Shown here: piece after piece, positions 780 through 12,057 of the stretch | Layout of the letters: every line of letters begins with the position of its first letter | Numbering within the stretch: the stretch's first letter is position 1 | Assembly: GCA_002455215.1 (NCBI GenBank) | Contig: DKKK01000102.1 | Span: 1,964 to 14,020, forward strand | DNA from: Anaerolineales bacterium UBA6668 | GTDB taxonomy: Bacteria; Chloroflexota; Anaerolineae; Anaerolineales; UBA6668 | Direction of reading: 5' to 3' | DNA length: 12,057 nt | Program-made: the position numbers and the translations under genes | The notes under the pieces: generated by a model | Seen by the model: only the letters and a program-made list of their open reading frames with translations | Told to the model about the DNA's origin: nothing | The model's database searches: none

Positions 780-1376
780 ATGTCCATTCGTCATGCGCTA
801 CTCGGTTTACTGTCCCAACGCCCTCGGCACGGCTACGAATTGCGAGCCGCTTTTTCGGCAGTGGTTGGGGGTGAAGAAAGCTGGGAAGTCAAACCCGCGC
901 AAATCTACATGACGCTTGAACGGTTGACGGAAGCAGGTTGGGTCGTTTGTGAGAGTAACTTGGGCGAAGGGCAAGAACCGGCTCGGCGCATCTATGCCAT
1001 CACCCCGCAAGGACATTCCGCATTGCAAGCGTGGTTTGGCAGTGGCGTGCCCTCTGAGCACCAGCGTGACCCTTTTTTCCTAAAGTTAATTACTGCTGTA
1101 GTGGCGGGAGAAAAAGACCTACAGCGAATTTTACAAGTGCAACGCGCTACCTTATACCGTGAACTGCACGCGCTCACTGCATTGCGGGGGCGGTTGGATG
1201 CACGAGTCGAGCTGGCGCAAATTCTCCTGCTGGACAAAGCCATTATGCACACCGAAGCAGATATTCGCTGGCTGGACTTTATTGAAATCCGGCTAGATGA
1301 GATCTGCCGTCAACCCATCCCGCAACCTGAATTGCGCCCTCGGGGTAGACCCAAAAAAGAAATTCAACCCGAATAA
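780..1376 (+). CDS. PadR-family transcriptional regulator with AT-hook-like C-terminus
   Basis: This 198-aa protein is a winged-helix regulator of the PadR family. The N-terminus (residues 1-90) shows the family signature: RHALLGLLSQRPRHGYEL, then PAQIYMTLERLTEAGWV and RRIYAITPQGHSALQAWF. Residues 95-178 are helical and fit the PadR C-terminal dimerisation region. The end carries RPRGRPKKE (residues 186-194), an AT-hook-like minor-groove motif not normally part of PadR proteins. The ATG has no Shine-Dalgarno; the sequence before it is a pyrimidine-rich CCACCTCCCCT-type stretch. It lies 30 bp before an ABC exporter and probably represses that operon in response to a drug-like or membrane-active ligand, as PadR proteins often do. 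The ligand is unknown. Confidence 0.9.
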   Translation: MSIRHALLGLLSQRPRHGYELRAAFSAVVGGEESWEVKPAQIYMTLERLTEAGWVVCESNLGEGQEPARRIYAITPQGHSALQAWFGSGVPSEHQRDPFFLKLITAVVAGEKDLQRILQVQRATLYRELHALTALRGRLDARVELAQILLLDKAIMHTEADIRWLDFIEIRLDEICRQPIPQPELRPRGRPKKEIQPE

Positions 1377-1406
1377 CTTTCACACTCATTCACTTTTTAC
1401 AATCTT

Positions 1407-2120
1407 ATGGCTATTTTAAAAACCAACCAACTTACAAAAACGTATGGCGCAGGAGATACCGCTGTCACCGCCTTAGACCACCTGTCATTAGAAATTGCGG
1501 TGGGCGAAATGGTTGCGATTATGGGTCCAAGTGGCTGTGGCAAATCTACTCTATTACACCTATTGGGTGGGCTTGATACCCCTACCAGCGGCGAAGTATG
1601 GATTGATGGGCAAAATCTCACTCGGTTAAACGATAACCAACTGACTGAACTCCGCCGCCGCAAATTAGGCTTTATTTTTCAATTCTTTAATTTGATTCCG
1701 GTGCTGAACGCGGTCGAAAACGCCGCTTTGCCGGTGACACTAGATGGAATGGCAAGCCAACAAGCACAAGCCAAGGCTACCGAATGGCTTCAACGCTTTG
1801 GATTGGGTAACCGCCTAAAGAACTTACCCAGCCAACTTTCCGGTGGGCAACAACAACGGGTTGCAATTGCGCGAGCATTGGTTGCCGAACCAGCGCTCAT
1901 TCTCGCCGATGAACCGACAGGCAACCTCGACACCCACGCCAGCGATGAAATTGCCGCACTTTTGCGCCAAGTAGCCAAGGAATACCGGCGCAGTGTGGTG
2001 ATGGTCACACACGACCCACGCATTGCCGCTTATGCTGACCGTATCATTTTCCTGAAAGATGGCAAACTTGCCGATGAAACCGTGCTTGCCAGCCAACCTG
2101 CCGGAGCAGTCGCTCATTAA
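1407..2120 (+). CDS. ABC transporter ATP-binding protein (MacB/LolD-like)
   Basis: This 237-aa nucleotide-binding subunit energises the FtsX-type permease encoded 17 bp downstream. All ATPase motifs are intact: Walker [10 protein letters not shown] (residues 40-48), Q-loop Gln92 in [10 protein letters not shown], signature LSGGQ (144-148), Walker B LILADE (164-169), D-loop near NLD (173-175) and the H-loop His202 in VTHD. The sequence [27 protein letters not shown] is characteristic of the MacB/LolD/FtsE class, whose members act as mechanotransmission or lipoprotein/peptide exporters rather than classical importers. Length is normal for the class. There is no clear ribosome-binding site. The substrate is not evident. 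Confidence 0.95.
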
Positions 2121-2137
2121 TGTGAGACTATCTATCA

Positions 2138-4702
2138 ATGAACACACTACTTACACTTGCCACTCGTTACTTAATGGGACGGAAATTGCGTACCGCTCTG
2201 ACCACGCTAGCCGTGATGTTTGGGGTATTGGTTTTGTTTGGCATGAATATCATTCTCCCTACCATGATTACCGCGCTACAAGCCAATGTACAAGGCGCAT
2301 CCGGATTGGTAGATTTTTCCATTAGCCAAGTCTCCGGTGAGCCTTTTTCACAAGACATCCTGGCAAAAGTGCAGGCAGTGGCAGGGGTGCGTGTCGCAGT
2401 GGGTAGCTTACAGCGTACCATCAACTTGCCAGCCAATTACCTAGACAACGCTCCGGACACGCCCGACCGCATTACATCCTTTCAACTCATTGGCGTGATT
2501 CCCAGCGAAGCCAGCCAGATTCGTACCTTTCCAGTGGTGGAAGGTACATTCTTGCAGGAATCTGCTACCCAACAAGCGGTTATTTCCCGCACATTTGCCG
2601 ATGCTTCTGCTGTCAAAATTGGGGATGAATTAGAAATTCCTTCGGTTAGCGGGGTACAACCATTGCAGGTGGTCGGAATTTTGCCCCCTAACACAGACCC
2701 AGGCGGCGAGCGAGTGTATGTTACCCTTGCTACCGCCCAAAAATTAGTCGGCTCGGTTGGCAAAATCAACCAAATTGACGTGAACTTACCCGCAATGGCA
2801 GACGAAGCCACCCGCGAAACCGTTCAAGCCGACATTCAATCCGCATTGGGTACATCCTTCTCGGTTGGCACCCTGTTGAGCGGCACCGAAATGTTTGCAT
2901 CTATCCAAATGGCAGAAGCGGCATTTAATTTATTTGGGGTGCTAGCGTTCTTTATGGGTGGATTTATCATTTTTAATACGTTTCGCACCTTAGTGGTGGA
3001 AAGAAGGCGGGATATTGGCATGTTGCGCTCGCTTGGCGCGACTCGGGGGCATATTTTGGGATTGGTGCTGGTGGAAGGTTTGGTGCAAGGCATAGTGGGA
3101 ACCACGGGTGGGTTGATAGTAGGCTATGGGCTTGGCGCTCTGATTCTCAGGCTGGCAGAAGCCCCATTGAGCCAATTTATCAACATTCAACTCGGAAAAC
3201 CGGTAGTCTCCCCCGCACTGCTGATAGTTTCCAGTTTATTAGGGGTGGGTACGACCTTATTGGCAGGGCTATTTCCGGCGCTGAGCGCGAGTCGTGTTGC
3301 ACCGCTCGAAGCGTTACGCCCCAATACCCATATGCCACAAATGCGTTGGCAACGCGGTATGGGCTTTATTTTGGGTGGTATTTTTATCGTAGTTTCCATA
3401 TTTGTGCTATTTACCGGCAATGCGTTATGGATTGTGCCGTGTGGTTTTCTATTTTTAATTGGCTTGGTCTTGGTTGCCCCAGCCTTGGTACAGCCCCTCG
3501 CTGTGTGGTTTGGACGGTTGCTTGGCTGGTTGTACGCCCGGCAAGGTACGGGTACGCTTGCCCAAAGCAACCTGACACGCCAGCCCACTCGCGTTGCCGT
3601 GACCGCCTCCGCCACCATGCTAGGGCTGGCTGTTTTGGTAGCCGCGGGCGGTTTGGTGAGTAGTCTGACCTCCACCATGTTTGATGTGATTCGCAAAAGT
3701 TTGGGTAGTGATTATCTGTTTGTTCCGCCGTCAATTGGCGTATGGGGAAGTAATTTAGGCAGTGGTGCAGAATTTGCCGAGACATTACGGACTATTCCGG
3801 GAGTCGAAACCGTTAGCGCCCTGCGCTATCTGCCCAGCTCTGCCAATGGGCAAGTACTGACTTTATTGGGTATTGACCCGCAAGCTTTTCCAAAAGTGAG
3901 TGGCTTAAGCTTTCAGCAATCGGTTGTCGGGAATGATGACCAGTCCTATGCCACACTGGCAAACGAACGAGCGCTAATCGTGAATGGAGTCTTCTTGAGT
4001 ACAGTAGGGGCACAGGTGGGCGATGTGATAGACCTTTCTACCACTGAAGGCACGGTTTCCTACCGCATCGTGGCAGTTGCCGCCGATATTTTGAACGCCA
4101 AAATTGTCACCGCTTATATTTCCCAAGCCAACCTGCAAGCCGATTTCGGCGATAGCGCTGACGTGTTCATCCAACTCAACTTAAAACCGGGCGCAGATGT
4201 GGCAAGTACGGAACAAGCTATCAAGACGCTTGCCGCCGATTACCCGCAATTTAATGTCATTGCCGGGCGTGAATATACCGATGTCATGCTAAACCAGATG
4301 TCGGCGGCATTTGGCGCAATGTATTTCTTGTTTGCGATGTTGGCGATTCCTTCGTTAATTGCCATGCTGAACACGCTTACCATTGGTGTGATAGAACGCA
4401 CCCGTGAGATCGGTATGCTTCGTGCAGTTGGGGCAACTCGCCAGCAAGTGCGTACCATCGTCACTGCCGAAGCCCTGCTCTTGGCGGCAATCGGGGCAAT
4501 ATTGGGGATTTTGGGCGGGCTGTACTTGGGCTACGTGTTGGTGCTTGCCATGCAAGCCATGTTCCCGATGGGCTATCGCTTTCCCGTCAATGGGGTTATC
4601 ATTGCTCTCTTTGTCGCCTTATTGTTTGGCGCAATTGCCGCAATCTTACCTGCCCGCCAAGCCGCTCGCTTGCGTGTGGTAGAAGCCTTACGTTATGAGT
4701 GA
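2138..4702 (+). CDS. FtsX-like ABC transporter permease, double-FtsX type
   Basis: This 854-aa membrane protein is the permease partner of the preceding ATPase. It has two FtsX units in one chain. Unit 1: a helix at about 17-42, an extracytoplasmic MacB-type domain (about 45-255) and an FtsX domain with helices near 263-283, 306-338 and 358-382. Its coupling segment VERRRDIGMLRSLGATRG is at 287-304. Two linker helices follow (about 408-426 and 430-452). Unit 2: a helix at about 487-512, a second extracytoplasmic domain (about 515-715) and FtsX helices near 725-750, 775-805 and 815-838. Its coupling segment IERTREIGMLRAVGATRQQ is at 752-770. The layout predicts ten helices and a permease able to work as a single chain. 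It likely exports a hydrophobic or peptide substrate, or acts on lipoproteins. Confidence 0.93.
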   Translation: MNTLLTLATRYLMGRKLRTALTTLAVMFGVLVLFGMNIILPTMITALQANVQGASGLVDFSISQVSGEPFSQDILAKVQAVAGVRVAVGSLQRTINLPANYLDNAPDTPDRITSFQLIGVIPSEASQIRTFPVVEGTFLQESATQQAVISRTFADASAVKIGDELEIPSVSGVQPLQVVGILPPNTDPGGERVYVTLATAQKLVGSVGKINQIDVNLPAMADEATRETVQADIQSALGTSFSVGTLLSGTEMFASIQMAEAAFNLFGVLAFFMGGFIIFNTFRTLVVERRRDIGMLRSLGATRGHILGLVLVEGLVQGIVGTTGGLIVGYGLGALILRLAEAPLSQFINIQLGKPVVSPALLIVSSLLGVGTTLLAGLFPALSASRVAPLEALRPNTHMPQMRWQRGMGFILGGIFIVVSIFVLFTGNALWIVPCGFLFLIGLVLVAPALVQPLAVWFGRLLGWLYARQGTGTLAQSNLTRQPTRVAVTASATMLGLAVLVAAGGLVSSLTSTMFDVIRKSLGSDYLFVPPSIGVWGSNLGSGAEFAETLRTIPGVETVSALRYLPSSANGQVLTLLGIDPQAFPKVSGLSFQQSVVGNDDQSYATLANERALIVNGVFLSTVGAQVGDVIDLSTTEGTVSYRIVAVAADILNAKIVTAYISQANLQADFGDSADVFIQLNLKPGADVASTEQAIKTLAADYPQFNVIAGREYTDVMLNQMSAAFGAMYFLFAMLAIPSLIAMLNTLTIGVIERTREIGMLRAVGATRQQVRTIVTAEALLLAAIGAILGILGGLYLGYVLVLAMQAMFPMGYRFPVNGVIIALFVALLFGAIAAILPARQAARLRVVEALRYE

Positions 4703-5884: not shown

Positions 5885-6448
5885 GTGTTGCCAACTTCTG
5901 TAAATCTTAGTTCATTCTCAGTGTTTGCTGGTGTCAGTACTATGACTATCAGTGTGTTGGCAATGCTGGTGCTGGTGCTGGTACCTGCCGCTATCTTTAG
6001 TCGTTTTTTTTCGGGGCGAAATCCAAACCATACAAGTACAGGTGACAACATGATGACAAACCAAGACCCAGCAGACGAAGATCGTGAAATGCGCGAAAAA
6101 CGTCGGATTAAGGCATGGGAGATGTTTCAACAAGGGGTATCGCAGGCAGAAATTGCAAAAGAACTAGCTGTAACTCGTGGTGCAGTGAGTCAATGGATTA
6201 AAGCCGCTCGTGACAATGGCGGTTCAGATGCGTTACTAAGCCGACCCAGACCCGGGCGACCCAACATGTTGACAGAGGAACAACTTGCAGAGCTAAAGTC
6301 TATGCTCCAACAAACCCCAACCGATTTTGGTTTTTCCGGTCAACGTTGGACTTACGCCAAAACTGCTGAACTAATTGAAAAGCAATACGGCGTAACCTAT
6401 CATCCCGCGCATGTTTCTCGCTTAATGAAAAAGATAGAGCAGAAGTAA
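5885..6448 (+). CDS. Solo IS630-type winged helix-turn-helix protein, possibly membrane-anchored
   Basis: This 187-aa protein carries the DNA-binding half of IS630-family transposases without the DDE catalytic domain. Residues 72-107 form the first HTH (GVSQAEIAKELAVTRGAVSQWIK). The linker is RPRPGRP (120-126), followed by a second winged HTH (128-184) with QRWTYAKTAELIEKQYGVTY and the family-typical HVSRLM. The gene stops right after this, and the downstream 90 bp has no DDE remnant, so it looks like a domesticated or stand-alone regulator rather than a recently broken IS. From the GTG at 5885 the N-terminus has a hydrophobic stretch (residues 20-38) resembling a membrane anchor. An alternative start at Met57 (6053) has a better SD (AGGTGA at 6040-6045, 7 nt away) and would drop it. 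I chose the long form because the frame is open back to 5852 and the promoter lies 70 bp upstream. Confidence 0.72.
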   Translation: MLPTSVNLSSFSVFAGVSTMTISVLAMLVLVLVPAAIFSRFFSGRNPNHTSTGDNMMTNQDPADEDREMREKRRIKAWEMFQQGVSQAEIAKELAVTRGAVSQWIKAARDNGGSDALLSRPRPGRPNMLTEEQLAELKSMLQQTPTDFGFSGQRWTYAKTAELIEKQYGVTYHPAHVSRLMKKIEQK

Positions 6449-6568: not shown

Positions 6569-7015
6569 ATGCTACGTTCAAAAACGATTGGAATCTTTTT
6601 GTTGGCTGTAAATTTTATTTTTGCCTGTGCATTTTTGATTTACGGACTAAGTTTACCGTTTACAAAGGTGGATGTCTTTTGGGAAACGAAAACTGAGATA
6701 GGGACATTGGGCTATCATATCTACAGAAGTGAAACCCCCAATTCGCAGGCGATTCAGATCACACAAGAATTGATTGCCGCAAAAGGAGATGAAACCAAAG
6801 GTGGCAAGTATTCTTATCGTGATTTGGACGTAAAAGCAGGGCAAACCTATTACTACGAATTGGAAGAAGTTGAACTGAATGGAGCAAAAAATAAGTACCA
6901 ATTAACATCCGCAAAACCCAATTGGTATGAAAAGGTTCTTGTTTTGGGCTCTGCGGCAGTCTTATTTATTTCTAGTGCTTATTTAGGCTATTCTGTGCTT
7001 GGAAAAAGAGATTAA
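6569..7015 (+). CDS. Small membrane protein with FN3-like extracytoplasmic loop
   Basis: This 148-aa protein is unfamiliar at family level. It has a hydrophobic helix at residues 7-29, an external region (about 31-118) and a second helix at 121-144 with a short basic end (GKRD). The loop reads LGYHIYRSETP, YSYRDLDVKAGQTYYYELEEVELNG, a pattern typical of fibronectin type III-like modules in secreted bacterial proteins (G-x-x-I/L-Y-R-S, then Y-x-Y-x-D, then TYYYxLE-V). I start it at the ATG at 6569 because earlier in-frame codons fall inside the terminator. There is no strong ribosome-binding site. Function is unknown; an adhesive or sensory surface role is a guess. Confidence 0.7.
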   Translation: MLRSKTIGIFLLAVNFIFACAFLIYGLSLPFTKVDVFWETKTEIGTLGYHIYRSETPNSQAIQITQELIAAKGDETKGGKYSYRDLDVKAGQTYYYELEEVELNGAKNKYQLTSAKPNWYEKVLVLGSAAVLFISSAYLGYSVLGKRD

Positions 7016-7360: not shown

Positions 7361-7537
7361 ATGTCATACCAAACCAATCCACTGTGCGATGTATCAGACC
7401 AAAAAGTTGTATGTGATTACCAAACACCAGATATCATTTTTGAAGCCGATTTGCAAACGCGAGCCGGTTCTCCCTTAACGGGAGGTGGGTTGGACCCACT
7501 GTTTGATGATCATAGCGGTTTTGGTGATATGCCTTAG
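7361..7537 (+). CDS. Putative RiPP (lasso-like) precursor peptide, 58 aa
   Basis: This small gene has a near-perfect SD (AAAGGAG, 7348-7354, 6 nt before ATG). The peptide has an N-terminal Cys-containing segment, then YQTPDIIFEADLQTRAGSPL (residues 20-39), then a Gly/Asp-rich tail with TGGGLDPLFDD (40-50) and HSGFGDMP at the C-terminus. The YxxPxI motif matches the leader element bound by PqqD-like recognition domains in lasso-peptide systems (consensus YxxPxLxxxGxxxxxT), and a PqqD-family protein is encoded 4 kb downstream. By leader spacing, Ala35 occupies the usual Thr(-2) place and the core would start at Ser37, putting Asp45 at ring position 9. An alternative is Thr40 at -2, with core start at Gly42 and Asp49/Asp50 at positions 8/9. 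Product class is inference; no cyclase is visible in the window. Confidence 0.7.
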   Translation: MSYQTNPLCDVSDQKVVCDYQTPDIIFEADLQTRAGSPLTGGGLDPLFDDHSGFGDMP

Positions 7538-7573
7538 AAAATAAAGCGCTCTTACGGTTCAGACAGGTTGTAA

Positions 7574-7585
7574 ATCTAATTAGAT
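7574..7585. repeat. 12-bp palindrome after precursor gene
   Basis: ATCTAATTAGAT is a perfect palindrome 37 bp after the precursor stop codon, flanked more widely by GTTGT (7567-7571) and ACAAC (7591-7595). It may be part of an RNA stem in the precursor 3' region, but there is no T-run, so I do not call a terminator. The rest of 7538-7783 shows no second precursor-like ORF and no strong promoter. Confidence 0.35.
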
Positions 7586-7783
7586 CTGGCACAACGGCAG
7601 TTACTCGCTTTCTACCTGAAAAATTGTATTTGCGTTTGTGTTGGCTAGATGGGGCTTAAGGTTATCGTTGGCGTCATAAAATAGCAAAATAAAATTTGTA
7701 ACCTTTACTGTTTTTTTATTTTATTCGCCACGCAAAAATGATGGTGTTTGTTTACCCATCAAATATTAATCAATGGTAACCTT

Positions 7784-10700
7784 ATGAAACCTGGAAAATT
7801 TATCCGTTTTACATCTATCCTGTTCGTACTATTACTGGGGATATTAAGTGTTTATACAAGTCATAGTACAGCCCAAGATAATTCTGTAAATATAACCACA
7901 CCTGTTGTCCGGCTTGAATCATCCGATTTGGCTGGTGTTTCGTTTCAGTATGTTGGGGGAGTACCGGAAGTATCTCAAACAGTTATTGAAGGAATTACAT
8001 ATTCTGAAGTTTCTTTGAAAGATGCACAACTGGCGGAAGAGCAAGGCAAGCCAAGTTTGCCAATGTTTATTGCAATGATAGGCATTCCTTATGGAGTAGA
8101 GCCTAGCCTGCATTTTACCGTTCAACCCGCGCAAATTTTGCCCCTTTCCGCACCAGTTTTACCAGCAGTCTCCCAACTGCCAGCCGAAGAAGATTTGCAA
8201 CCAGCAAAGCAAGCTTACCTACCCAGTGCAGAAATTTATCAATCTGCCGATTCCTTTCCAGATACCCCAGTTGTACTCTCTGACACCCTTCAAGTGCGTG
8301 ACCAACGCGTCGTGGTGGTGAAGATATTCCCGGTTTCTTATCAACCATCAGAATCTACTTTGCAGTGGAGCGCCCAAATTGATATTCGCATTGATTTTGT
8401 CGGCGATGCGGAATTGTCAAACCCGGCAGTAGAAGAAGTAGAGTTTGAAGGGATGTACAAAAACCTTTTAAACTATGATAGCGCCAAAGCCTGGCGCCAA
8501 AGCCTAGCCGTGCAATCTTCAGTTGCGCCCGCCAATGGAAGCGAAAGTTTGTTGGCGGTAGGCACTCGCTATCGCATTGCAGTTCCCCAAGATGGGCGGG
8601 TGAAGTTGAAAGGCTCGCAACTCACGGCAGTCGGAGCGAATTTGACCAAAACTTGTGCTGGCAACACCGCCTACCCCATTCATTTGACCGTTCAGGGGCA
8701 AGATGTGGCATATACGGTAGCGGACGGCGGTAATAATATTTTTGATATCAATATCATCAGTAACGACTATATTTTCTTCTACGGTGAAAAATTTCGTGGT
8801 GACCGCTTTGCCACACTTTTCTCAGATGAAGATGACGGATGGCTGGATTTTGCCGCATATTGGCCACTCTATGGCTTAGGCACTCAAAAGATTGAGCTTG
8901 CCGACCACTTTGAGACCATTACCGACACCAATTATTACTGGCTGAGTGTTGAATGTACGGGAGTATTACAAATGTCCACCGCGACACCGGTTACGGGCGG
9001 CACTTCCAAGAACATTTATCGGGAAACGGTGCGTTTTGAGCAACAACTTCTCCCCTGGACGCACCATTTTACTCATGCAGATTTGTGGTTTTGGTTCCGC
9101 TTGCGCTCCAGTATTAACCCAAGCTCATCAGTTTACCCATTGGCTATTTCCGATGTTGTGCCGGGCGGGGCAAATGCGACTTTCCGCGCCGAAGCAGTAT
9201 CTAGAAGTTACAACGAACTTGCCCCGAATAGAACTCTTGAGTTTAGCATTAATGGAACTTCGATTGGCTCAACCACTTGGGCAGGCAGAAGTCGTACCTT
9301 CTTCAGTACCAGTGTAACGCCAGCGCAAATTAATGATGGCGATGGGGTTGTGGATTTTCAAGCAAACATACAAACTTCATCGGCTGAACAGGATATTTAC
9401 TTCGATTTTGCGGAAGTCGAGTATGACCGCTATATGGTGGCGCAGTCCAATCGCCTAACCTTCACAGAAACGGCGGTGGGGACATTTGCTTATCAAATTA
9501 GCGGGTTCTCCGGCGTAACTGAAGATGTCGTTGCCTATGATATTACCAACCCACTCCAACCGGTACAAATTACGGGTACTTATAACTCAGGCACTGGCAC
9601 TTTCACATTTCAAGCACAAAATACCGGTACACGGCGCTTTGGTGTATTTGGTGCATCCTATCCGCCTAATGGAACGGTAACGGCTTATGCCAATACCACT
9701 TGGTCTGCTAGTTCGCATAATGCAAAATATGTCATCATCGCGCCGGATGATAGCAGTTTTATTACTGCGCTAGAACCGTTACGCACCTATCGCGCCTCCA
9801 CTTATGGAAGTGCATTGATTATCAACGTGCGTGATTTGTACAACGAGTTCACCTTTGGCATTGAACAACCCACGGCTGTCCGGCAGTTTTTGAAATCAGC
9901 CTATAATTGGCAAACCCGCCCATCTTTCGTTTTACTGGTAGGTTACGGGCACTGGAATACCAAAGGGTATAACACGGCAAGCTGGTATAGCCCAACTGCG
10001 GCTGGTACAAAGAATATTTTGACTCCCAACATGGTGTGGGCTGACCCGTGGCAAGGTAATGTGGATAGCAGTAGCTGGTTGGCGGCTGTTTCCGGCTCTG
10101 ACCCTGTACCGGATTACTTTATTGGGCGCTTACCTGCTTTTAATACCACTCAAATTACCAATTATATTAACAAGCTCATAGCTTACGAAGCTTCCTCCGC
10201 TTTTGCCAATTGGCGCAAGAATCACATCTTTGCCGCAGATAACTTGGATATTCTTGCGGGTAATTTTTGGGCATTGAGCGATGGTATTGCAAATACGTAT
10301 GTCAGTGCCGGGCGGCGACTTAAAACCTATGTATGCTCAGGTGGAGCATCTGACCCGGCTGGTTGTTATAACGGCTCAGCCGCGCGTACCAATCTAATCA
10401 ATGACCTGAATACCAAAGGTGCGCTCATTGCCAACTATGTTGGGCACGGCAGTGTGGCGCAATACGCGGACGAAGGTGTTTTGCGTATTTCAGACGTTTC
10501 CACCCTGAATAATGCCGGAAAATTGCCCATATTTGTCTCTATGGATTGTTTGGACGGCTACTATGCCTTCCCATCCAGCACCACCGGGGCAACCCCGTTA
10601 CAACCCAGCCTAACGGCTTCTTTGGTGCTTCAACAAGATGTGGGTGGTATTGCCGCTTATGCTCCAACTGGTTTGGGGATTGCCAACGGGCATGATGTGA

Positions 10701-10894
10701 TGCACAACGGTTTTTACAAGAGTATCATGGTACAAAACGCAACCAATTTGGGGCAGGCTGTTTTGCTTTCCAAAGCAGAGCTTTACGGTACGGGCTACCA
10801 TTTTGACTTGATTCACAGCTTCACAATTTTTGGCGACCCAGGTTTGCGAATTGTTTATGCAAGAGATGTGTTTTTGCCGATTATCTTGAAATAA
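7784..10894 (+). CDS. Secreted gingipain-type (C25) cysteine peptidase
   Basis: This 1036-aa exported protein is a C25-family cysteine peptidase. A signal peptide covers about residues 1-31 (KPGKFIRF basic start, SILFVLLLGILSVYTS core, STAQD end). Residues about 45-240 resemble the C25 propeptide (EEQGKPSLPMFIAMIGIPYG, then VRDQRVVVVKIFPVSYQPS). A beta-rich middle part spans 260-630. The catalytic domain (about 645-1020) starts at KYVIIAPDD and contains the expected catalytic His888 in YVGHGS and Cys922 in SMDCLDGYY, 34 residues apart, close to the spacing in gingipain R. GDPGLR near the end is also family-typical. The C-terminus DVFLPIILK resembles a tail I associate with Chloroflexota surface proteins. 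I chose ATG 7784 over an upstream TTG because the signal peptide begins there. The ribosome-binding site is weak. Specificity is unknown. Confidence 0.9.
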   Translation: MKPGKFIRFTSILFVLLLGILSVYTSHSTAQDNSVNITTPVVRLESSDLAGVSFQYVGGVPEVSQTVIEGITYSEVSLKDAQLAEEQGKPSLPMFIAMIGIPYGVEPSLHFTVQPAQILPLSAPVLPAVSQLPAEEDLQPAKQAYLPSAEIYQSADSFPDTPVVLSDTLQVRDQRVVVVKIFPVSYQPSESTLQWSAQIDIRIDFVGDAELSNPAVEEVEFEGMYKNLLNYDSAKAWRQSLAVQSSVAPANGSESLLAVGTRYRIAVPQDGRVKLKGSQLTAVGANLTKTCAGNTAYPIHLTVQGQDVAYTVADGGNNIFDINIISNDYIFFYGEKFRGDRFATLFSDEDDGWLDFAAYWPLYGLGTQKIELADHFETITDTNYYWLSVECTGVLQMSTATPVTGGTSKNIYRETVRFEQQLLPWTHHFTHADLWFWFRLRSSINPSSSVYPLAISDVVPGGANATFRAEAVSRSYNELAPNRTLEFSINGTSIGSTTWAGRSRTFFSTSVTPAQINDGDGVVDFQANIQTSSAEQDIYFDFAEVEYDRYMVAQSNRLTFTETAVGTFAYQISGFSGVTEDVVAYDITNPLQPVQITGTYNSGTGTFTFQAQNTGTRRFGVFGASYPPNGTVTAYANTTWSASSHNAKYVIIAPDDSSFITALEPLRTYRASTYGSALIINVRDLYNEFTFGIEQPTAVRQFLKSAYNWQTRPSFVLLVGYGHWNTKGYNTASWYSPTAAGTKNILTPNMVWADPWQGNVDSSSWLAAVSGSDPVPDYFIGRLPAFNTTQITNYINKLIAYEASSAFANWRKNHIFAADNLDILAGNFWALSDGIANTYVSAGRRLKTYVCSGGASDPAGCYNGSAARTNLINDLNTKGALIANYVGHGSVAQYADEGVLRISDVSTLNNAGKLPIFVSMDCLDGYYAFPSSTTGATPLQPSLTASLVLQQDVGGIAAYAPTGLGIANGHDVMHNGFYKSIMVQNATNLGQAVLLSKAELYGTGYHFDLIHSFTIFGDPGLRIVYARDVFLPIILK

Positions 10895-10912
10895 GGAGCT
10901 ATCCTTAAGCTA

Positions 10913-11407
10913 ATGATTGATTCCATGTCCACAGGTACCCTTCATCAAGTTCCGGTCGTTGGGCAAAGCATGATGCCATTAATTCGCTATGGAGACAGCA
11001 TCACGCTCGTACTGAACGAAAAACACCCCATCGTTGTCGGAGAAATTATCACTTTTTGGCAAGAGTACGCCTACACCACCCATCGCGTGGTGCAGGTAGG
11101 GCATGAGCAATTACGCACAAAGGGCGATTCTACCCTCCAAGTGGATACCCCGATTCGTGTAGAGCAGGTTTTGGGCAAAGTAAGCACTGTCTTTCGCGCA
11201 GGTAGCAAACTCCCAATGGCAAAGATTCCAGCTTTTTATCGGTTCGCACAAGCAAGAGCGAGTCTTTTGCAGGCAACCGTGAATGAAAAATTTTCCACCC
11301 AGTCGCCACTACTGGTGCGAGTTGTTCGTACCCTTTGCTCAATATTTCTATCCGGTACGAATCAAATGCTTTGGTGGCTATTTGCCGAGGAGAACTCACT
11401 CAGTTAA
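10913..11407 (+). CDS. S24/S26-type signal-peptidase-like protein
   Basis: This 164-aa protein has the core of a type I signal peptidase of the Ser/His (archaeal/SipW-like) kind: VVGQSMMPLIRYGDSI with putative nucleophile Ser19, THRVV with His57 in the place of the usual base, and RTKGDSTLQVD with Asp72 and Asp78. It lacks the usual N-terminal membrane helix; the only hydrophobic stretch is near the C-terminus (about 133-157). AAGGAG (10893-10898) overlaps the stop codon of the C25 peptidase gene and lies 14 nt before the ATG, a rather long spacing. Small S26-like proteins of this kind recur in lasso-like RiPP clusters beside PqqD genes, where their role is unclear. A processing role for the precursor or the C25 protein is possible. 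Confidence 0.82.
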   Translation: MIDSMSTGTLHQVPVVGQSMMPLIRYGDSITLVLNEKHPIVVGEIITFWQEYAYTTHRVVQVGHEQLRTKGDSTLQVDTPIRVEQVLGKVSTVFRAGSKLPMAKIPAFYRFAQARASLLQATVNEKFSTQSPLLVRVVRTLCSIFLSGTNQMLWWLFAEENSLS

Positions 11408-11452
11408 ATGGTTCAATATCCGGCATACGTGCCTAATCATGTATTGCGTATG

Positions 11453-11474
11453 TTTGCAATAGAAAAATTGCAAA
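11453..11474. repeat. Hairpin between S26-like and PqqD genes
   Basis: TTTGCAAT (11453-11460) and ATTGCAAA (11467-11474) are perfect 8-bp arms with a 6-nt loop (AGAAAA), extendable by two G-U pairs. It sits in the 104-bp spacer before the PqqD gene and lacks a T-run, so it is more likely an mRNA processing or differential-stability element than a terminator. Confidence 0.5.
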
Positions 11475-11511
11475 TGCTCTGTGTACCGACAATCCATAAA
11501 AGGATACTCTG

Positions 11512-11814
11512 ATGACAAAACCTGTTACACTTTCTCAGACATTTGCCCCCAAGCCTGGCCTTGTCGTTCAAATTTTAGGTCAAGAAGCCGTGCTAGTTCA
11601 CCCGGAGCGTGGACGGGTACAAGTGTTCAATGCAGTTGGAAGCTATATTTGGAAATTGTTGGATGGGCATAATTCGTTGAAACAAGTTGTGGTTGAGATA
11701 GAAAAGACCTATGGCATCTCTGCAGAGCGAGCGCAATCAGATGTGTTGGCATTTTGCCATCAATTGCTAGTACGTGACTTGATTGTAGTGCATGAAAACG
11801 AAGATTTAGCTTGA
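11512..11814 (+). CDS. PqqD-family protein (RiPP recognition element)
   Basis: This 100-aa protein is a stand-alone PqqD-like domain, the peptide-binding module (RRE) that captures the leader of RiPP precursors and delivers it to the modifying or cutting enzyme. Family features: AVLVHPERGRVQVFNAVGSYIWKLLDG (strand pair then N40-W47 helix start; residues 26-52), SLKQVVVEIEKTYGIS (55-70) and a C-terminal helix pair ending LLVRDLIVV (85-93). AAAGGA (11498-11503) is 8 nt before the ATG, an optimal ribosome-binding site. Its likely partner is the YxxPxI leader of the 58-aa peptide at 7361. In lasso systems the equivalent is the B1 protein; the matching B2 peptidase and cyclase would be expected downstream of the window. 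Confidence 0.88.
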   Translation: MTKPVTLSQTFAPKPGLVVQILGQEAVLVHPERGRVQVFNAVGSYIWKLLDGHNSLKQVVVEIEKTYGISAERAQSDVLAFCHQLLVRDLIVVHENEDLA

Positions 11815-11945: not shown

Positions 11946-12057
11946 ATGTCAAACACATCTTATGTGTCAATACCTTCGCCAATTTTGAAATCGCACCCCT
12001 ACATAGGTCGGATTTTTGGACATTCACGAATTTTGGCGAAGGTATTGTTAAGAATAA
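11946..12057 (+). CDS. Possible start of the next gene, truncated by window edge
   Basis: From the ATG at 11946 a frame stays open to the end of the window (37 codons plus the last base), beginning MSNTSYVSIPSPILKSHPYI and continuing with a basic, Leu/Ile-rich stretch. It has no recognisable ribosome-binding site and runs through both hairpins, so it may be chance (an open frame this short is not rare). If real, context predicts a RiPP biosynthesis gene, but the visible part matches no family I can name. Confidence 0.3.
   Translation, partial: MSNTSYVSIPSPILKSHPYIGRIFGHSRILAKVLLRI
11953..11967. repeat. Short perfect hairpin adjoining the long inverted repeat
   Basis: ACACAT, loop CTT, ATGTGT form a 6-bp stem that abuts the long inverted repeat beginning at 11968, so the two helices could stack. 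Confidence 0.45.
11968..12047. repeat. 80-bp element with 15-bp perfect inverted ends
   Basis: CAATACCTTCGCCAA (11968-11982) and TTGGCGAAGGTATTG (12033-12047) are perfect inverted arms separated by 50 bp. The interior has further pairing (AAATC 11988-11992 with GATTT 12011-12015; CCT with AGG at the tip), so as RNA it would form a long irregular hairpin. As DNA it could be a small palindromic or MITE-like repeat, but no target-site duplication is visible. Confidence 0.65.

Follow-up and report, generated by a model that had tools for sequence, protein, structure and literature searches.

The window analysed here is a stretch of 12,057 nucleotides (G000:C12:1964-14020) of contig DKKK01000102.1 from Anaerolineales bacterium UBA6668 (assembly GCA_002455215.1), whose genome comprises 3.34 Mb in 225 contigs and is 92% complete. 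On one strand it carries a gene for a small peptide with a YxxP-type leader followed by genes for a C25 peptidase, an S26-type peptidase and a PqqD-family protein, which we consider together as a candidate system for a ribosomally synthesized and post-translationally modified peptide (RiPP). The features of the locus are as follows (positions are those of the window; aa, amino acids; RRE, RiPP recognition element; LPP, linear polyphosphorylated peptides; HMM, hidden Markov model).

7361..7537, plus strand: precursor peptide of 58 aa, whose leader at the N-terminus contains YQTPDII (residues 20-26) and LQTRAGSPL (residues 31-39); tail rich in Gly and Asp
7418..7435, plus strand: YxxPxI motif of the leader (Y20-x-x-P23-x-I25), predicted to bind the RRE from its sequence and its conservation in relatives
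7451..7477, plus strand: LQTRAGSPL (residues 31-39), a conserved junction and predicted region of leader cleavage, by analogy to FET-AQS of LPP; Ser37 is conserved and a candidate phosphosite
7784..10894, plus strand: C25 (gingipain/PorU-like) peptidase with a pro-domain; its N-terminus looks by eye like a secretion signal, and both His888 and Cys922 are conserved
10913..11407, plus strand: S26B-type (archaeal/SEC11-like) peptidase, the predicted leader peptidase; Ser19, His57, Asp72 and Asp78 invariant in 23 homologues
11512..11814, plus strand: PqqD-family RRE; leader-pocket residues of LppB conserved (N40, V42, Y67, D77, F81)
6569..7015, plus strand: Fn3-like small membrane protein, assigned by eye (Fn3), by BLAST clustering and by a family HMM of which it is itself a seed

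The 58-aa open reading frame (ORF) is a real and coding gene. Its ATG is preceded by AAAGGAGTTCCAA, and the existence of a full-length homologue at 71% identity places it beyond chance. Used alone as query, the ORF recovered motif-bearing short ORFs from other genomes (best E-value 9.5e-7); at E ≤ 10, 42 of 151 genomes gave some match, most of the weak matches being due to chance. Across 33 disjoint pairs of homologues, codon positions 1, 2 and 3 carry 109, 55 and 320 differences, respectively, a third-position bias inflated by the choice of pairs on protein similarity. The ribosome-binding site and Y20-x-x-P23-x-I25 motif noted in a preliminary description of the window are confirmed, and its remark that the gene is unannotated was right in substance, all legible names among the 120 homologues listed being 'hypothetical protein'. 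The comparison with precursor models that it had proposed, made for 22 family members against NCBIfam, returned noursin (E 0.13) as the single match at E ≤ 10. No real match to the peptide profile was found in the PDB, and no signal sequence was seen in the peptide by eye. A 44-aa protein (P0001) on a 6871-bp contig shares 41 identical residues with the window peptide and then reads PTV; we regard it as an assembly or strain variant.

The peptide belongs to a large unnamed family of leader-bearing peptides in Anaerolineae-type bacteria, with the leader pattern Y-x-x-P-x-[IV]-[IV]-x-E-x-x-L-E-[TV]-[RKQ]-A-G-S-P-L. A profile built from 22 members (A1) gave matches at E ≤ 0.01 in 57 of 298 genomes, an even draw from the window's class, and in 1225 protein clusters at the same threshold. 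The titles of the 15 named loci that match read Chloroflexi or Chloroflexota, Anaerolineae or Anaerolineales, with Ca. Aquidulcis and Thermoflexales appearing once each. A phylum-wide draw of 301 genomes gave three matches at E ≤ 1e-4, namely the window's own genome, one of the same class and one (G617) from outside it. The G617 peptide (YTPPAILYEGRLQTNAGTP..) stands directly before a C25 gene, which is followed by an Fn3-like gene and a second C25 gene; this genome, found by the peptide profile alone, confirms the gene order.

The loci number 79 and hold 88 peptides, of which 86 could be anchored by requiring A, V, T or S 15 places past the Tyr. Among these 86, the leader carries Y in 84, P in 85, I or V at +5 in 85, E at +8 in 75, L at +11 in 72, E at +12 in 68 and T, V, A or I at +13 in 82. 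Position +14 is R or K in 65 and Q, H, F or V in the other 21 (Q in 15), and the junction follows with A in 84, G in 84, S or T in 83 (S in 76), P in 71 and L in 63. The spacing from Tyr to Ala was 15 in 77 of 81 peptides in an earlier, freer parse. The tails are variable and often acidic. These data delimit a precursor family whose members are labelled hypothetical in databases.

The 79 loci comprise the window contig, 18 of 19 stretches from relatives (covering the better of 67 matches of the ORF-alone search) and 60 stretches for 94 profile matches; L036, where a Tyr-Gln stretch occurs by chance, and L025, the locus on C66 described below, were removed before loci were counted. The common order is Fn3-like gene, HprK-like kinase and sometimes an extracytoplasmic function (ECF) sigma factor with its anti-sigma, then peptide, C25, S26, PqqD, Fn3/Thr-Pro-rich membrane protein and second C25 (C25b). 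Of the 29 peptides whose stretch includes a C25 gene, 24 have it on their own strand with its start at most 1.5 kb downstream; the stretches fetched for 59 further peptides hold none. In the ORF set, which misses genes and draws on many short contigs, the 24 C25-linked loci contain Fn3 in 20, C25b in 14, PqqD in 10, HprK in 9, S26 in 9 (one of these being a 416-aa ORF) and sigma in 4. Six-frame matches add PqqD in eight stretches (L040, L075, L088, L095, L096, L097, L113 and L133), bringing it to at least 18 of 24, and in five loci with no C25 (L076, L079, L085, L105 and L116) PqqD lies within 0.4 kb of the peptide.

At the genome level, C25 is present in 55 and PqqD in 54 of the 57 peptide genomes, and in 37 and 36, respectively, of the 37 genomes whose best peptide match has E ≤ 9.1e-6, against a background of 199 (C25) and 193 (PqqD) of 298 genomes (Fisher p below 1e-6, the genomes being related). 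The co-occurrence that the preliminary description had suggested examining is found, and its view of C25 as an unusual companion is supported. Among the papers listed by our literature searches none dealt with C25 in a RiPP context or with precursors from Anaerolineae, and a term search of a review of RiPP leader proteases found it to name neither C25, gingipain nor signal peptidase (PMC10885120).

In several genomes a single machinery cluster faces dispersed peptide genes. The A1 profile matches seven peptides in G064, six in G073, five in G089, two in G029, one in G122 and six in G244; in the first five of these genomes all matches have E ≤ 1.2e-10 except one of G073 (1.5e-5), and that one and one of G064 contain a stop. 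No dispersed peptide lies on the C25-PqqD cluster contig of its own genome (L155, L156, L161, L158 and L162; the G089 cluster, L157, is cut by a contig end), and the G380 and G335 clusters (Fn3-PqqD-C25-Fn3-C25b; L163 and L165) have no peptide on their contigs. G008 and G127 were removed from the clusters without a peptide, each being likely one cluster over two contigs (L026 and L159, L035 and L160). A secreted-like ORF of at least 250 aa lies within 700 bp of 38 of the 59 peptides that have no C25 in their stretch. By the same hydropathy rule, 38 of 85 near ORFs are secreted-like; elsewhere in these stretches the figure is 29 of 243 (odds ratio 6, p 1e-9; the loci are related). One such neighbour, in L031, has Big_1, SdrD_B, SpaA and thioester domains. 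For the dispersed peptides, processing in trans and a tie to secreted proteins are probable; in other genomes, such as that of the window, the peptide lies inside the cluster. This layout of one cluster and many peptides beside secreted proteins suggests a role in the cell envelope, and it opens the question of LPP function to testing. In six loci (L112, L117, L120, L121, L128 and L131) the peptide gene follows a ribonucleotide-reductase-like gene and faces a convergent gene for a secreted-type protein, a fixed position across genera; two of these neighbours were read by eye and all six fall in one BLAST cluster.

LPPs provide the closest frame for the enzymes of the locus. They are described from Bacillota, with the genes lppA/K/B/S/D/N, and are said to be restricted to that phylum (PMC13381572, 2026). 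According to that report, their leader reads YxxPxVLxHQxIxFETxxS, they have a discrete RRE (LppB, in which D70 hydrogen-bonds the leader Tyr) and no cyclase, and their core genes also include a nucleoside triphosphate (NTP) transferase and an MsbA-like exporter (PMC13381572). LppS is an archaeal-type signal peptidase (S29, H68, D93); in vitro it cleaved the leader after T-1 together with LppB but not alone. LppK places several phosphates on Ser3 of the core (AQS) (PMC13381572). The main text of this report makes no mention of Chloroflexota, C25 or gingipain.

The preliminary description had placed a PqqD gene downstream of the peptide in the same direction, with C25 and S26-like genes between them; Pfam matches and, for the S26-like gene, a TIGR match slightly below its cut-off confirm the three, all on the strand of the peptide. 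The PqqD protein (PF05402, 2e-17) yields a profile that matches the solved chains TbiB1 (2.9e-17), LppB (9x8z, 4.8e-12) and PbaB1 (9x90, 2.6e-11). The LppB residues N33, V35, Y60, D70 and F74 correspond to N40, V42, Y67, D77 and F81 of the window PqqD, where chain numbering equals the published numbering plus 18, as checked on residues named in PMC13381572. A second PqqD gene of the same genome (L025:623-2140, on C66) lies beside genes that by eye encode an HprK-like-looking protein, a glycosyltransferase and ATP-binding cassette (ABC) polysaccharide-export-like proteins. The HprK-like-looking protein is not matched by the profile of the linked kinases, and we set this PqqD apart from the present system as belonging to a different locus.

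The S26-like gene starts 18 bp after the C25 stop. Its product scores 50.6 bits against TIGR02228 (cut-off 51.85); Ser19, Met20, Pro22, His57, Arg58, Asp72 and Asp78 are invariant in 23 homologues, the nearest solved chains are SEC11C/A, and its structural model (mean pLDDT 86.5) matches the folds of LexA, SEC11 and SipA at TM 0.40-0.47. The protein had been described as a soluble signal-peptidase-like protein of the locus; its role is probably central, a protein of this type being the leader peptidase in LPP (PMC13381572). In the HprK-like proteins of relatives, the P-loop and DDL are invariant in six of six.

The C25 peptidase matches PF01364 (1e-65) and Propeptide_C25 (8e-13), and its profile recovers PorU (6za2, 7e-53), gingipain R2 (4ief, 1.3e-35) and gingipain pro-domains. 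The structural model has a mean pLDDT of 76.4, and in Foldseek its best match is PorU (E 4e-29, TM 0.42, rmsd 11), with RgpB at 8e-18. His888 and Cys922, present in at least 90% of 23 homologues, align to RgpB H211 and C244, which we take to be the catalytic pair. The protein thus shares the pro-domain and the catalytic His and Cys with gingipains and PorU and differs from them in its linkage to an RRE and a peptide. It also differs at the residue that we take to be the S1 Asp of RgpB (Asp163), which in the profile alignment, uncertain in this loop, falls on a non-acidic column; Arg specificity is therefore unsupported. Identity with PorU, the sortase of the type IX secretion system, was rejected at the equivalog level (220.8 bits against an NCBIfam cut-off of 420).

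We estimate a probability of roughly 0.7 that the locus encodes an LPP-like system for a linear RiPP in Anaerolineae-type Chloroflexota. The YxxPxI leader would dock on the PqqD protein as its RRE, and the S26B-type peptidase would cut the leader inside LQT-R-AGS, leaving a short, linear core rich in acidic residues, Gly and Pro that would start AGSPL. Where relatives carry the HprK-like kinase, its probable target is the conserved Ser of AGS. Outside the membrane, the two C25 peptidases and the membrane-anchored Fn3/Thr-Pro-rich proteins may then handle the core, a stage that most likely serves final processing or surface attachment. That the peptide is a RiPP-type precursor with a PqqD partner is well supported; our confidence falls from there through leader removal by S26 and Ser phosphorylation in genomes with the kinase to a surface role of C25. 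Rather than a lasso peptide, the product is probably a linear modified peptide of a new, surface-linked kind. This reading builds on observations of the gene family, its coding nature, synteny, catalytic and leader-pocket residues, co-occurrence, dispersed peptides and peptide contigs free of lasso enzymes; leader binding, the cleavage site, phosphorylation, the export route and the role of C25 are proposed. More tentatively, these loci may constitute a separate class of surface-display RiPPs in Chloroflexota, in which a single machinery in each genome (PqqD, S26, kinase or radical S-adenosylmethionine (SAM) enzyme, paired C25 and Fn3/Thr-Pro stalks) would mature many scattered YxxP precursors beside adhesin-like proteins, with C25 as a PorU-like transpeptidase that would fix the peptide to a stalk or the surface.

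Several points weigh against the LPP-like reading. The best solved match of the PqqD protein is a lasso B1 protein (TbiB1) and not LppB, and the distance from the Tyr to the conserved Ser is one residue off that in LPP. Within the window genome, 92% complete as it is, the best kinase match has E=0.008 and no kinase of the linked type was found. HprK and S26 occur in only 9 and 9 of the 24 C25-linked loci, albeit on many short contigs, and by profile search the G380 and G335 clusters lack both near PqqD and C25, so neither is strictly required. An exporter stands beside the peptide in two loci, and no NTP transferase was found among 25 of the 123 families matched by neighbouring genes. This survey covered 82 of 102 unlabelled neighbours; from some recurrent neighbour families, such as response-regulator/GAF types, a few members were annotated. 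The co-occurrence test, moreover, takes no account of kinship between genomes, and both C25 (199 of 298 genomes) and PqqD (193 of 298) are common.

The assignment of leader removal to S26 has a competitor in C25, which might itself cut after the basic residue of ETR-AGS and leave S26 an accessory. Gingipains are Arg/Lys-specific, R or K precedes AG in 65 of the 86 anchored peptides, and C25 is kept in clusters without S26 (L163 and L165). However, the other 21 have Q, H, F or V at this position, RgpB Asp163 is not matched by an Asp (the loop alignment being uncertain), and the C25 looks secreted, with a pro-domain, whereas by eye the peptide has no signal sequence. We consider removal of the leader by C25 unlikely, and an Arg-specific gingipain cut was rejected as the main idea on the first two of these grounds. 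The -3/-1 rule of signal peptidases ([TVAI]-x-A, then G) fits 82 of 86 peptides at position 13 and, at position 15, where the anchoring itself demanded A, V, T or S, 84 of 86. It is kept only as an alternative to a cut between R and A, since LppS cuts after Thr.

Other explanations concern the class of the peptide as a whole. The preliminary description had called its leader motif lasso-type; the RiPP-type precursor, YxxP leader and PqqD partner are supported, the lasso type is not. If the peptide were a lasso precursor, PqqD would be the B1 protein, with B2 and cyclase beyond the contig or elsewhere in the genome. The YxxP leader with PqqD, the solved B1 match and a presumed likeness to paeninodin-type leaders speak for it, as do the contig end 646 bases past the window, six Asn_synthase matches on other contigs of the genome and true lasso clusters in the same class (e.g. 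L143). Yet B2 (NF033537) exceeds its cut-off in only 4 of 52 peptide genomes (six with any match, none in the window genome) and Asn_synthase (PF00733, the cyclase fold) occurs in 30 of 52; peptide contigs, many of them short, carry neither. The other 22 have no Asn_synthase match at E ≤ 1e-10, a survey that further reduces the odds of a lasso, and an acid at core positions 7-9 is found in 30 of 81 peptides (46 of 81 if Gly rather than Ala is counted as residue 1). With no linked B2, no linked cyclase and an acid at 7-9 in 30 of 81, we rejected lasso membership and regard it as scarcely plausible. That the peptide is instead a small protein outside the RiPPs, with a structural or regulatory role beside the neighbouring surface proteins and YxxP by chance, fits the secreted-like ORFs beside 38 of the 59 peptides without C25; it is highly improbable given the PqqD co-occurrence and synteny, the conserved LppB pocket and a strictly conserved leader and junction with a variable tail, as is typical of RiPP precursors. 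Modification of the AGSPL family in trans by a radical SAM enzyme encoded elsewhere is suggested by sister clusters of C25, PqqD and HprK in which Cys-containing YxxP or WxxP peptides accompany radical SAM/SPASM-like genes. We judge it improbable, Cys being present in 1 of 81 parsed cores and no radical SAM gene appearing among the 25 of 123 neighbour families surveyed, genome-wide radical SAM genes not having been searched.

Sister clusters of this kind are found among 20 further stretches, 17 with C25 and PqqD on one contig and three with PqqD and a weak peptide match. By eye, other YxxP or WxxP peptides are present in 15 of the 20 and none is convincing in five. The clusters L139, L142-L148, L152, L154, L166, L168 and L133 combine C25 with various of HprK-like, S26 and PqqD genes, most of their peptides having Cys and some ending in Ser. 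Among their radical SAM/SPASM-like genes, seven proteins match NCBIfam models, all below cut-offs, one was recognized by Pfam and others by CxxxCxxC only. The AGSPL family looks like a radical-SAM-free branch of a larger C25-PqqD-HprK association, of which these clusters are possibly the radical-SAM branch. L143 also carries, several kb upstream of its C25/peptide cluster on the same contig, a real-looking lasso cluster (1775-4583) with B2 (99.8 bits, cut-off 33), a core GGTWGNPEDFV.., a cyclase-like protein (232.9 bits, cut-off 525) and PqqD. The C25/HprK loci L135-L138, most with PqqD, share a near-identical peptide with Y-[QK]-T-P-x-L-T-K-H-Q-R-L-Q-K-V-T-L-G-T-V.

Around the locus, the 6569-7015 gene is homologous to the gene that opens the clusters of relatives; its product has no Pfam match above cut-off. 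Extension of the contig, as the preliminary description had advised, reaches only its end 646 bases past the window. In this extension starts an N-gapped Thr/Pro-rich ORF whose match to the relatives' Fn3/Thr-Pro gene is weak (27.9 bits, low complexity); it does not match the small-Fn3 profile. A scaffolding gap just past PqqD is flanked by a 23-nt direct repeat and 15-16-nt inverted repeats (window 11967-12047; L002:13930-14046). Upstream, positions 780-4702 encode a PadR regulator (Pfam) and, both by eye, an ABC ATPase and an 854-aa FtsX/MacB-like permease, an ordinary exporter operon. At 5885-6448 lies a gene for an HTH_32/HTH_29 protein resembling the DNA-binding portions of transposases, with a long N-terminal extension if a GTG start is taken.

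Among known systems, paeninodin-type lasso peptides share the YxxP/WxxP leader, a discrete PqqD-like RRE and an HprK-like kinase with the present loci, which differ in having no linked B2 or cyclase and no conserved ring-acceptor acid. The SynChlorMet cassette (NCBIfam ScmC/ScmD/ScmE/F), on which a literature search by name returned no paper, resembles them in its PqqD (45.9 bits to ScmD) and HprK-like proteins (35.6 bits to ScmC), but these scores are far below the cut-offs of 100 and 125, and no radical SAM gene was seen in AGSPL clusters. The likeness to LPP is broader. It includes a discrete RRE with the same Tyr/Pro pocket, a YxxPx[VI] leader whose E-T junction precedes a conserved Ser, an archaeal-type signal peptidase I with Ser, His and Asp as leader peptidase (LppS and the window S26 being compared by type only), an HprK-like kinase in relatives and no cyclase. 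Exopolysaccharide genes lie near some loci (in L087, Wzz-like and LMWPc genes beside the peptide), and a cut at ETR-AGS would again make the Ser residue 3 of the core. Unlike LPP, the present systems belong to Chloroflexota rather than Bacillota, recurrently contain paired C25 peptidases and Fn3/Thr-Pro-rich membrane proteins, and in several genomes have one machinery cluster for dispersed precursors. The H, Q and F of the LPP leader are not shared. ABC exporters adjoin the peptide in two loci (L083 and, on homology grounds, L088), no NTP transferase was seen among the 25 of 123 neighbour families surveyed, and the window genome shows no kinase of the linked type. The system would work like an LPP, of which it is a candidate member. 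It would carry the LPP type, a discrete RRE with a signal peptidase as leader cutter that was called exclusive to Bacillota in 2026 (PMC13381572), into another phylum, and adds to it paired C25 peptidases, Fn3 proteins and a single cluster facing one to seven dispersed peptide genes, often near secreted proteins.

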